Assembly: GCA_001803415.1 (NCBI GenBank)
Contig: MHDC01000014.1
Coordinates: 42,703 to 80,925, forward strand
Reading direction: 5' to 3'
From: Microgenomates group bacterium RBG_16_45_19
GTDB lineage: Bacteria > Patescibacteriota > Microgenomatia > UBA1400 > RBG-16-45-19
Length of the DNA: 38,223 bases
Below the pieces are notes generated by a model, which was given only the letters and a program-made list of their open reading frames with translations, did no database searches and was not told the DNA's origin. The translations under genes and the position numbers were made by a program. This document shows positions 16,598 to 29,687 of this stretch, piece by piece. Each line of letters starts with the position of its first letter. Within the stretch, counting starts at the first letter, position 1.

Positions 16598-16606
16598 TGT
16601 TATACT
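16598..16606 (+). promoter_or_regulatory. Extended -10 promoter TGTTATACT
   Basis: TG-n-TATACT placed ~7 nt upstream of the base of the structured RNA at 16614. Confidence 0.6.
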
Positions 16607-16612
16607 TTTTAA

Positions 16613-16806
16613 TGTCGTGGGCCTGCCGGGTTGGGAGATCAGCCTGTCAAGCTCGATCTCGGGGGCTCAACTCCCCCCAGGTCCACGACTCCTATAAAGT
16701 CGTTGACATTTATCAGCTGTCGTGTCATACTAAGCAAGCTTGACAGGCTGAATCTTCTGCTCGGCGAGATCGCTAAGTGAAGCCACTTTAACCGGTGGCT
16801 TTTTTA
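16613..16806 (+). ncRNA. Candidate structured RNA with tRNA/tmRNA-like domain
   Basis: 12-bp closing stem (16614-16625/16678-16689), T-arm-like GGGGG-CUCAACU-CCCCC (16661-16677), anticodon-like arm with 7-nt loop CUGUCAA (16635-16660), 3' segment complementary to that arm, own promoter and terminator. Confidence 0.6.
16781..16806 (+). terminator. Rho-independent terminator
   Basis: AGCCAC-N8-GTGGCT followed by TTTTT. Confidence 0.75.
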
Positions 16807-16961: not shown

Positions 16962-17129
16962 ATGGGCTTAACGATTCAATGCGATCTATGCAACCAAGAA
17001 GTTACCAATAGTAAATACATTTCGGTTAATGCCCCTTCAAAATTTGTCCGTGGCTACTATTGTGAAAAGTGTTGGTTAGGCCAAAAAAACTGGCCACGAA
17101 TCCACGGGCTTAGAAAGAAAGCTTCCTAG
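16962..17129 (+). CDS. 55-aa zinc-ribbon-like protein
   Basis: MGLTIQCDLCNQEVTNSKYISVNAPSKFVRGYYCEKCWLGQKNWPRIHGLRKKAS*; two CxxC pairs; SD GGGAGG. Absent from ORF track. Confidence 0.7.
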   Translation: MGLTIQCDLCNQEVTNSKYISVNAPSKFVRGYYCEKCWLGQKNWPRIHGLRKKAS

Positions 17130-25810: not shown

Positions 25811-26572
25811 CAAATAATTGTTAATCTCTAAGTCGCCTTAGAGTTCGGACTATATCTTGGAACAAGATATATGCTTTAGCATATATCTAATGTTTCTCTG
25901 ACGTATAGTCTCTGAGGATTCTATGAGCATGATATTTTCGTTTACCCGTATTCATTGTGTTGGTAATAGAGATTATTTCTTCAACACCTTCTCTTGTAAG
26001 ATGTTTCTTTTCTAAAACCAACTGAATTACTTGGCAAAACTTTTTAAAGTCTTCCCTTTTTATAATTAATTTTTCATTAAAAAAAGGTATCACTTTTTCT
26101 TTAATATCTCTTATGTTTCGGACAACATACGCTAATGATTTATCCGATGAAGTGGCAGAAGCATTATGTTTTATATATCCGCATTCCAATCTATTTTTCA
26201 AAGCTTCCAAAACCTCTATTCCTCGAGGATTTTGAGATACTTTAAAGAAATAGATTAATTGCCAACGCGACTTTGTTTCCTTTGATGGAACAAAGCTCAC
26301 ATAAAAACAACCTTCACCCTCAATAAATCCAATTAAATAATCATCCGATATCTGACTCATAGTCTTTCCTGCTGATTGTCTGCACTCAACACATTTTTAG
26401 TATAATTCCGAAGATTATCCGAAATCAACTAGTGTGAGATTCTCAGAGTTTCCAGCATATAGTCAGATTTATCTCCGGTACGATACCGGAGGTTGTATAT
26501 TTATAACAGGCTCGAATTGTTCAAAATCGTCTATCTACAACTGAGACAGTATGACCAAAAAACTTTCGTTTT
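25811..26572 (-). mobile_element. Group I intron with LAGLIDADG ORF (E. coli ~2604/2605)
   Basis: Exons ...GAGACAGC|TCGGCCTCTATC; omega-G; IGS CUGUCUC pairs with GAGACAG; core CAATCAGCAGGAAAGACTA and CAGAGACTATACG...AAGATATAGTCC. Confidence 0.85.
25887..26360 (-). CDS. Intron-encoded LAGLIDADG homing endonuclease
   Basis: YLIGFIEGEGCFYVSF; C-terminus RILRDYTSEKH overlaps the intron core. Confidence 0.92.
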   Translation of the reverse strand: MSQISDDYLIGFIEGEGCFYVSFVPSKETKSRWQLIYFFKVSQNPRGIEVLEALKNRLECGYIKHNASATSSDKSLAYVVRNIRDIKEKVIPFFNEKLIIKREDFKKFCQVIQLVLEKKHLTREGVEEIISITNTMNTGKRKYHAHRILRDYTSEKH

Positions 26573-27238
26573 GCTGTCTCACGACGCTCTGAACCCAGCT
26601 CACGTAGCGCTTTAACCGACGAACAGACGGACCCTTGGGAGCTTCTCCACCCCCGGGATGCGCTGAGCCGACATCGAGGTAGCGAACCGCGCCGTCGCTA
26701 GGGACGCTTAGGCGCGACTACTCTGTTATCCCCGGGGTAGCTTTTATCCGTTAAGCCCGGTGCCTTCCATAAAGCACACGAGGATCACTATGACCGGCTT
26801 TCGCCCCTGCTCGGGTTGTAACCCTCACAGTCAAGCACTCTTCTGCCATTGCACGTTCAAGCCCGATTTCCATCCGGGCTAAGAGTACCTTTGTGCGCTT
26901 GCGTTACTCTTTAGCAAGCAACCTCCCCAGTTAAACTACCCACCAAGCAGTGTCCCTCCCGATGTTTGCAATCGGGATAGGTGAGGTTTCTTAATCAAAA
27001 CGAGCGGTATTACACTGATGTATGCGAAATAAATCCGCACACTCCCGCCTATACTAGACAATTTTGGTTAAAAAACCAGTGCCAAGCTGTAGTAAAGCTC
27101 CACAGGGTCTTTTTGTCCAGCTGCCAGTAGGCCGCATCTTCACAGCCATTGCAATTTCGCCGGGTCTTTCCTCAAGACAGTGGCAGAGTGGTTACACCTT
27201 TCGTGCAGGTCGCTAATTAAGCGACTAGGGACTTCGCT

Positions 27239-27665
27239 CAAAAATCAATTTTATTGATTACGTCTTGTTATTTCGTGATCACGCTTTTAATCACTCTCAA
27301 GATCGCTCTTGAGTTCGGACTATATCTTGGGACAAGATATATGCTTTAGCATATATCTAAATAATGTCCCCTCTGCGTATAGTCTCTGAGGATTCTAAAA
27401 ACTTAGGTTTCTTTTGGTTATTAATTTGCCAAGACATTTTTGCCAACCCAATTTAGATGTTGAGTTCTGATGATAGAAAGGGTGAAACACCCTTCACCAT
27501 CCGTGAAACCCACAATCCAACCTTTCGTTTTTAGTCTTTCCTGCTGATTGTCCGCACTTGGAACATTTTTACCCATCTATGGTAACACGTTACCATAAAT
27601 ATGGTAGTTCAAGATACACGGATTTTCCAGCATATAGCAAAGTTTTACTATGGCAGCGATTATCT
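27239..27665 (-). mobile_element. Group I intron at E. coli ~1931/1932
   Basis: Exons ...CTGTTCTATGGT|AGCGAAGTCCC; omega-G; 7-bp P1 CUAUGGU/GCCAUAG with U-G at splice site. Confidence 0.87.
27421..27540 (-). pseudogene. Truncated LAGLIDADG endonuclease remnant
   Basis: Frame reads KTKGWIVGFTDGEGCFTLSIIRTQHLNWVGKNVLAN*; middle and C-terminal domain missing. Confidence 0.8.
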
Positions 27666-29687
27666 ACCATAGAACAGTTATAGTTACTGCTGCCGTTCAC
27701 CGGGGCTTCGATTGAAAGCAGGTACCTTGCGGTAACCACTCTCGCAATTAACCTTCCGGCACTGGGCAGGCCTCAGCCCGTATACTTCCTCTTTCGAGTT
27801 TGCACAGACCTGTGTTTTTGTTAAACAGTCCCTCCGCCAACTTTTGCTGTGATCCGGCTTACGCCGGATAGGGCATATTGCGAACGTACGCCCAGCTAAT
27901 TTGCCGAATTCCTTAAGGAAAGTTCTCCCGCTCGCCTGAGTCTACTCGACTCGTCCACCTGTGTCGGTTATCGGTACGGTTATTTATAGATCTGGTCGCG
28001 ACCATTTTCTCGTTTCCATGCGTCACTCAACTTCCCCGGTCAAAGACTAGGGTCGTCATCACGGCTCGGTTAAACATCATGACGGATTTTCCAATCACAA
28101 TTACCTCACCAGCTTTCACCCGGTAACTTCAGCACCAGGCCCAAGTTAGCCTAGAAAGTCCGGCCCCAACTCATAACGATCTACAAACAGGATGGGAATA
28201 TTAACCCATAATCCATCGGCTACGCCTTTGCGGCCTCACCTTAGGGTCGCCTAACCCTGAGTCGACGAACGTTGCTCAGGAACCCTTGGACATACGGCGA
28301 ACTGGATTCTCACCAGCTTCTCGCTACTCATTCCACCATTCTCACTTCTTGCCGCTCCACCATGCCTTACAGCACAGCTTCACTGCAACAAGAACGCTCC
28401 CCTACCCCGCCCCGCATAAATGCGGAGCAGCCATGTCTTCGGTCCTCTGTTTAAGCCTCGTAAATCTTCGGCGCCACTTCCCTCGGCCAGTGAGCTGTTA
28501 CGCTTTCTTTCAAGGATGGCTGCTTCTAAGCCGACCTCCTGGGTGTTTTAGGCAAATGACTTCCTTTCCCACTTAACAGAGAGTTAGAGACCTTAGACGA
28601 TGATCTGGGATGTTTCCCTTTTGCCCGCCAAGCTTAGCCCTGGCGTACTGAGTCCCACGCTGAACCTTACGGTATTCGGAGTTTGATTAGATATCTGCGG
28701 TTACCCACAAAATACCCATCCAGTGCTCTACCCCCGTAGGCAATCACGTGAGCCCATACCTAGATATGTTTCGGGGAGAACCAGCTAGCTCCAGACTCGA
28801 TTGGTATATTGCCGCTATCCACAGCTCATCCAAGCATCTTGCAACATACACTGGTGCGGGCTTCCACCCGCCTTTCGGCGGGCTTCACCCTGGCCATGGA
28901 TAGATCGTCTGGTTTCGGGTCTAATACTGACTACTATGGTCGCCCTATTCAGGCTCGCTTTCACTCCGCCTCCGTGATGACAATCACTTAAGCTTGCAGT
29001 CGGTATTAACTCGGTGGATCATTCTTCAATAGGCACGACATCATCCTGACCTTGCGGCCGGACTCTGTCTGTTTGTTAGCAAGCAGTTTCAGGTACTATT
29101 TCACTGGGTCTCTCACCCTTCTTTTCACCTTTCCCTCACGGTACTCGTTCACTATCGGTCATAGTGTGTATTTAGCCTTGGACCATGGTCGGCCCAGCTT
29201 CCTCCCGGAGTTTGCCGTCTCCGAAAGTACTTAGGAGTCTTTCTAAGGTTGGTTTGAATTTCGTCTACGGGACTATCACCCTCTTTGGTCAGACGTTCCA
29301 GACTATTTGACTATCCTTGCCAATCCTACATTGAAAGTCCTGCAACCCTCAAGGCTTGCGCCTCAAGTTTAGGCTGTTCCCTTTTCGCTCGTCGCTTACT
29401 CAGGGAATCTCATTCGATTTCTTTTCCTCCACTTACTGAGATATTTCAGTTCGGTGGCTTACCCCCCCGGTGTAACACCGGGGTCCGCTGGATTACTCCA
29501 GCAGGGATTCCTCCATTCGGACACCGCCGGCTCATTGCTTCTTAGCAGCTCCCCGACGACTATCGCGGCTATGTACGTCCTTCTTCGGCACACTATGCCA
29601 AGGCATCCACTGCCTGCATTATTAAAGTAGCTTTTTTAAAATTGCATTACAAAAAATAATGGCTCTTCTGATAATGCCTATACAGTT

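Follow-up and report, generated by a model that had tools for sequence, protein, structure and literature searches.

A tRNA-like RNA of alanine identity and its antisense RNA: a candidate protein-free addiction module of Patescibacteria (CPR)

Two all-RNA (type VIII) toxin-antitoxin systems have been listed to date, creTA and SdsR-RyeA (PMC10767807, PMC9458426). They consist of two small RNAs without a protein, encoded on the same or on opposite strands, of which the second antagonises the first (PMC10767807); in creTA, a CRISPR effector represses the toxin gene, and sequestration of a rare tRNA is one way in which CreT can act (PMC9458426). In type I systems of the hok/sok or SR6/yonT type, an antisense RNA with its own promoter blocks its partner through pairing that starts at a loop, the partner being an mRNA for a small hydrophobic toxin protein. 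Dual-identity tRNAs are toxic to E. coli, although beneficial ones are also known, and tRNA-ProX of Streptomyces, which combines the body of one amino acid's tRNA with the anticodons of others, shows this toxicity (PMC10365949). Alanyl-tRNA synthetase (AlaRS) needs G3·U70 and A73 and charges minihelices too (PMC9976931).

We analysed a stretch of 38,223 nucleotides (the window), part of contig 14 of a CPR genome of 1.37 Mb that is 86.7% complete (G000), in which positions 16611-16806 are two RNA genes on the plus strand: RNA1 (16614-16689), a tRNA-like RNA with alanine identity, and RNA2 (16737-16805, both ends approximate, being a predicted start and a terminator), an antisense RNA against RNA1. 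As in type VIII systems, both partners are RNA, lie close together on the same or on opposite strands, and the second would antagonise the first. Unlike creTA, the module has no CRISPR partner, RNA1 itself mimics a tRNA, and its anticodon arm is what RNA2 pairs with; the toxicity of RNA1 is something we infer. RNA2 resembles the type I antisense RNAs in its own promoter and loop-started pairing, but its target is a structured tRNA-like RNA rather than an mRNA, contains no conserved ORF for a toxin and covaries in structure, and RNA2 itself is a separate, diverging inverted or direct repeat that does not lie on the exact opposite strand of RNA1. The proline body, normal cloverleaf and dedicated ProRSx neighbour of tRNA-ProX, for which no antisense RNA is described (PMC10365949), likewise set it apart; creTA, SdsR-RyeA and the dual-identity tRNAs are all built differently from the module. 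We consider this anatomy very probably correct, and assign a probability of about 50% to the reading that the two genes form a minimal, type VIII-like addiction element in which RNA1 is an alanine-identity tRNA mimic and RNA2 its antisense.

The case for RNA1 comes from its fold, its acceptor identity, covariation and a score of 73.4 bits with a covariance model (R3) built from 28 family members. Its acceptor (16619-16625 paired with 16678-16684, followed by A73 at 16685 and C74 at 16686) is joined to a vestigial D-arm (CCGGGUUGG, 16626-16634), an anticodon-like arm of 9 bp with one bulge (16635-16660) whose loop CUGUCAA (16644-16650) carries GUC, and a T-arm (16661-16677) with a CUCAACU loop, the T-loop being conserved across the family. 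In isolation, 16611-16692 folds into this tRNA-like form at −42.4 kcal/mol (z = −3.65). Where a tRNA has a D-stem of 3 to 4 bp and a normal D-loop, RNA1 has 9 nt with a 2-bp mini stem, and the family has a mini arm of 2 to 4 bp closed by an (N)GGU tetraloop. The GG is retained; in tRNAs, the GG of the D-loop contacts the T-loop. Upstream lies an extended −10 element (TGTTATACT, 16598-16606; P1) that has no good −35, and since P1 scores across the family barely exceed those of shuffled sequences, this promoter is a weak prediction. An ORF without leader that starts at 16612 and spans RNA1 (~44 codons, read by eye) was set aside because the RNA structure covaries.

A first-pass annotation had read the locus as one switch RNA. 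The extended −10, the 12-bp stem, the T-arm GGGGG-CUCAACU-CCCCC, the arm with the CUGUCAA loop and the terminator (16779-16802) are all where it placed them, and the loop that it called Asp(GUC)-type is identical to that of tRNA-Asp(GUC) in the source genome. The 12-bp stem is present in the window but its outer pairs are not kept in the family, where conservation is limited to the 7-bp acceptor together with U(−1):A73 and, in most cases, G(−2):C74. The variable-loop spacing of a tRNA, also claimed, is contradicted by the structure: neither RNA1 nor the family has a variable loop, and the anticodon arm directly abuts the T-arm. ACGA does stand in place of ACCA, as described, yet this is ordinary here, the tRNAs examined in the source genome encoding C74 and often lacking CCA.

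That the RNA is neither a normal tRNA nor a tmRNA and is undescribed in Rfam was borne out. RNA1 scored 21.3 bits against the Rfam tRNA model (RF00005), under the gathering cut-off of 29 bits, and this sub-threshold tRNA match apart Rfam gave nothing at the locus; ARAGORN called no tRNA there, and RF00005 gave a single borderline match (30.9 bits) among 17 homologous loci. The seven acceptor pairs are nevertheless those of tRNA-Ala(GGC) of the source genome, including G3·U70 and A73, and G1-C72, G2-C71, G3·U70 and A73, the identity set of tRNA-Ala, are shared by RNA1 and all three tRNA-Ala genes of that genome. What separates RNA1 from tRNA-Ala, besides the Rfam score, is the lack of a proper D-arm or a variable loop and a non-alanine anticodon loop.

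The G3·U70/A73 acceptor, the T-arm and the reduced D-arm are also found in tmRNA, to whose model (RF00023) the window RNA scored 28.6 bits against a gathering score of 47. A decayed tmRNA, or a piece of one, might thus be suspected, the more so as neither tmRNA nor SmpB was found in the source assembly. That assembly is incomplete, however, and a genome of the same order (G013) holds the module together with an ordinary tmRNA and SmpB; RNA1 further differs from tmRNA in its closed anticodon arm and in lacking pseudoknots and, as the first-pass annotation had said, a tag ORF, and it covaries strongly. Co-occurrence with tmRNA and SmpB largely refutes such an origin, which we regard as scarcely tenable.

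The element that the first-pass annotation had missed is a second promoter, P2 (16703-16731), composed of TTGACA (16703-16708), a 17-nt spacer and a TG-extended CATACT (16726-16731), with 10 of 12 bases matching the consensus. Its 3' end sits 5 nt upstream of a perfect complement of 16639-16653 that begins at the predicted first base of RNA2 and measures 15 nt (16737-16751); the 13-nt complement reported before is real but shorter than this match, which itself lies inside a duplex of ~30 bp (16624-16653 with 16737-16766). A second complement (CGAGAUCG, 16765-16772), to the 3' strand of the anticodon arm (16654-16661), is present as reported, and RNA2 ends in an intrinsic terminator (16779-16805; stem 16779-16802 plus T-run). 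Cofolding of RNA1 and RNA2 of the window gained 23.1 kcal/mol and opened the D and anticodon arms. When the best sigma-70-type promoter before the complement was sought in 78 modules of the family, 9 to 12 of the 12 consensus bases were matched in 72, whereas shuffled sequences centred on 7. The distance from the −10 box to the first complementary base was 6 to 7 nt in 56 of the 78, a spacing that puts the predicted start of RNA2 at about the first base of the complement, and 73 of 78 have a terminator 3' of RNA2 (median of 61 nt to the T-run).

The full 200 nt favour a long hairpin over the tRNA-like form (−90.5 kcal/mol, z = −7.18, with none of 200 shuffles as stable), and a single RNA that refolds between the two, the earlier proposal, would gain from both states being stable in the full transcript, in which the tRNA-like fold would form first and the hairpin is better by 15.8 kcal/mol. 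In the tandem arrangement, moreover, read-through from P1 would join RNA1 and RNA2, which counts against two separate RNAs. Against a single switch stands the gene order, which varies among loci while the pairing is conserved: RNA2 lies in tandem downstream of RNA1, on the opposite strand in convergent orientation, or upstream of it. In the 13 convergent loci (G177, G192, G458, G310 and others, plus L130 and L140), RNA1 is followed by a direct repeat of its anticodon arm with a reversed TATAAT-like box, and in three (L244, L160 and L158) RNA2 stands 5' of RNA1 with a promoter and terminator of its own. One transcript cannot refold in these 16 loci, from which we conclude that RNA2 acts in trans and that the function conserved is not that of an intramolecular switch. 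Riboswitches, T-boxes and other switch RNAs hold both states in one transcript that controls a downstream gene; here RNA2 is a separate unit with its own promoter at the complement, and no regulated gene follows. We judge the single switch very improbable.

Searches with the raw nucleotide sequence among relatives, phages and plasmids gave no homolog, the matches being fragments of the terminator or T-arm. Covariance models built from the single sequence, of the tRNA-like core (R1) and of the whole RNA (R2), found members in genomes of the same order (G070, G076, G045, G054, G063, G078 and G028), with two copies in G070 (54.8 and 54.6 bits), and each of these members has a downstream complement to its own, differing anticodon arm. 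A search pattern derived from them (TGGGCYNG...YCRAYTCYCNNCNRGTCCAC) had 98 matches among the GTDB genomes, most of them in Patescibacteria (Pacebacteria, Falkowbacteria, Daviesbacteria, Gottesmanbacteria, Woesebacteria, Shapirobacteria, Blackburnbacteria, Uhrbacteria, Nealsonbacteria, Doudnabacteria, Jorgensenbacteria, Taylorbacteria, WWE3 and others). Taken together, the searches by homology, pattern and covariance model yielded ~100 RNA1/RNA2 pairs across Patescibacteria/CPR. Upon re-searching with R3, many genomes held ~2 to 6 copies (five strong matches in G095, six in G103), and a short-form match was present in ~20 of 389 genomes (5%) sampled evenly across the phylum.

About half of the matches in this phylum survey, mostly of 78 to 80 nt, turned out to be normal tRNA genes, chiefly tRNA-Ala, and were removed on the basis of length and the lack of RNA2; matches in planctomycetes were likewise tRNA-Ala genes with a small D-arm, in tRNA arrays without RNA2. 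These arrays (L117:129-1194, L128:7541-8000 and L168:3229-4099) contain tRNA-Ala(UGC) with a very small D-arm. A few matches outside CPR (e.g., L100, L107 and L162) may be mis-binned contigs or chance. Acidimicrobiia carry orphan RNA1-like RNAs without RNA2 (L096:166-240, L108:2395-2469 and L188:1371-1445), with the loop NUUGACA, as in Parcubacteria, next to what we take to be the 3' end of a ribonucleotide reductase small-subunit gene. A viral collection gave 16 matches, only one a plausible module: L194:566-637, on a 37-kb contig, is a probable module (65.7 bits) whose near-complement is preceded by a TATGAT box.

None of the conservation, covariation and known-family checks that the first-pass annotation had proposed led to refutation: the family is conserved and covaries, and it has no strong match to a known one. 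In RNA1, 137 cells were changed on both sides of a pair compared with 48.7 after shuffling (0 of 500 shuffles as high), the covariation score was 0.459 compared with 0.07 to 0.14 for slid structures, and compensatory pairs occurred in the D-stem, the anticodon stem and the T-stem. When the anticodon region was compared with the 120 nt that follow it, Watson-Crick runs of at least 11 nt occurred in 49 of the 97 loci from the pattern search, as against 1 of 1,940 dinucleotide shuffles. Where a genome has several copies, cognate RNA1 and RNA2 paired on average over a 14.8-nt run at −36.6 kcal/mol, whereas non-cognate pairs from the same genome (n = 92) averaged 8.0 nt and −16.8 kcal/mol; the match of each copy is thus largely private.

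The bases of alanine identity were highly constant: G3·U70 was found in 76 of 78 modules, A73 and C74 in all 78, and G1-C72 and G2-C71 were almost invariant, counts that are partly biased since the search pattern itself fixed these bases. Members found by model only retain G3·U70 where pair 4:69 differs (L187:4584 and 4118, L270, L271 and L289). As AlaRS reads G3·U70 and A73 and ignores the anticodon, the anticodon arm would be free to diversify with charging kept, and each copy could evolve its private match; that such anticodon-blind charging permits orthogonal copies is a possible reason for the alanine identity.

On the mechanism we propose, AlaRS would alanylate RNA1, with its alanine-type acceptor (G3·U70, A73), shrunken D-arm and non-alanine anticodon loop, and free Ala-RNA1 would harm or alter translation by misreading codons or by tying up AlaRS, EF-Tu or ribosomes. 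RNA2 (~65 to 70 nt), transcribed from the stronger promoter, would keep RNA1 off or unfolded, its 5' end pairing with the anticodon loop and arm and then with the D-arm, which would destroy the tRNA fold. A cell that lost the module would be left with stable RNA1 but no RNA2, and this would account for the patchy, multi-copy persistence without a protein and the need for orthogonal copies. That an alanine-charged misfit tRNA, held off by an antisense RNA, serves in this way as an all-RNA addiction or controlled-mistranslation module is, to judge from sequence, close to an even bet. The wider proposal, a new class of protein-free addiction elements of ~230 bp that has spread through CPR and settled, antisense and in frame, even within inteins and an essential gene, with an alanine mis-identity tRNA mimic as toxin and, as antitoxin, an antisense RNA whose start falls exactly on the complement to the mimic's anticodon arm, is put forward tentatively. 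Presence in several copies, the lack of a constant neighbour and the antisense position in host ORFs (below) count for an addiction element; counting against are the few members without a recognisable RNA2, the weak consensus of P1 and C37 in many Parcubacterial loops, which is unusual for a decoding tRNA.

Some hosts may use the module for controlled mistranslation, with RNA1 a regulated missense tRNA (Ala at Asp, Ile, Arg, Leu and other codons) and RNA2 its off-switch, an anatomy identical to that of an addiction element without the selfishness. The Microgenomates-type loops CUGUCAA, CUGAUAA and CUAAGAA retain U33, A37 and A38, and beneficial dual-identity tRNAs offer a precedent (PMC10365949). 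U33 is present in 27 of 28 members, but 12 of 28, mostly Parcubacteria, have C37; decoding is therefore plausible in the Microgenomates type but doubtful in the Parcubacterial type. A service to the host is further at odds with a loop specificity that shifts between copies and species, with the patchy occurrence in the phylum sample and with the lack of a linked synthetase at most loci, and we hold it to be unlikely. A link to aminoacyl-tRNA synthetase or amidotransferase genes, at which gatC, gatA and leuS hinted, was rejected, most loci having unrelated neighbours.

The roles might also be reversed, RNA2 being the effector, for instance as an antisense RNA that acts on ordinary tRNAs with the same loop as well, and RNA1 a decoy or sponge. 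RNA2 is indeed complementary over ~9 nt to tRNA-Asp of the source genome, because the loops of RNA1 and tRNA-Asp are identical. The conserved part of the module, however, is the acceptor, T-arm and D-loop GG of RNA1, RNA2 being conserved mainly as the complement of its partner, and a sponge would not need alanine identity; we consider this reversal improbable.

Neighbouring genes were mostly unrelated between loci, a ligA-module-gatC locus being common to several genomes. The link to the zinc-ribbon gene at 16962 that had been suspected finds no backing in these varying neighbours, and few relatives of that gene were found. Its sole other relative found (L011:650-1376) lies directly 3' of a pair reading like HicB-HicA. 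Among the proteins neighbouring the module in the window, defence models had no match. Within host ORFs of at least 200 aa, 16 of 17 modules were antisense, the nearest downstream gene was antisense in 27 of 33, and the antisense strand of 30 out of 78 modules stayed open from end to end, compared with 9 expected from mononucleotide shuffles, an excess also seen, at 20, for the sense strand. Antisense placement would protect the host mRNA from being cut short by the module's terminator. A methionyl-tRNA formyltransferase (fmt) gene (L137:143-1207, minus strand) contains the module as an in-frame insertion of ~70 aa, Fmt residues ~69-139 having no counterpart in solved Fmt. One Blackburnbacteria contig (L187, 1-8000) bears four modules in 7.5 kb, on the minus strand at 323, 4118, 4584 and 7416. 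All four lie in frame and in antisense orientation within giant surface-protein ORFs; three share an ORF with a match to the intein splicing domain of Pfam (1.8e-47), and one falls between the halves of the Hint fold, at the usual position of the endonuclease.

Rickettsia palindromic elements are short elements that lie in frame in coding genes. The module shares this habit, but inserts two RNAs, along with two promoters, that are read in antisense orientation to the host gene. The in-frame insertions in fmt and intein domains, together with several copies per genome, would suit a mobile element of the SINE-like or palindromic kind, with RNAs that serve only its own spread and pairing that protects or processes the RNA. 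The copies are highly diverged, however, and the recurrence of ligA-module-gatC in several genomes points to slow spread; neither repeats nor a mobility enzyme were found, and alanine identity would be left unexplained, so we give little credence to mere mobility.

Searches of the open PMC literature found no description of such RNAs. To our knowledge, the module would be the first in which an antisense RNA targets a tRNA-like RNA, and the first all-RNA module to have a tRNA mimic for its active part. It defines a large RNA family absent from the catalogues, in a bacterial group that ranks among the biggest and least understood. As the tRNA part scores below the usual annotation cut-offs and many modules are located within annotated genes, the family has probably escaped notice and distorted gene models (Fmt, inteins). 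If our reading is true, it would offer a route to programmed mistranslation or be one of the smallest selfish elements.

The bin of the source genome is incomplete and perhaps mixed: besides the missing tmRNA and SmpB, no tRNA-Ser was found in a whole-genome look, and the tRNA-Thr and tRNA-Tyr genes are duplicated, on two contigs. Within the window, ~350 nt of intergenic DNA 5' of P1 (16240-16590) contain a strong inverted repeat (GCGCCCACTCT...AGAGTGGGCG). A 23S rRNA gene (26531-29632) is split by a match to a group I intron (27296-27725), and near this interrupted gene lies an ORF resembling a homing endonuclease (25887-26360).
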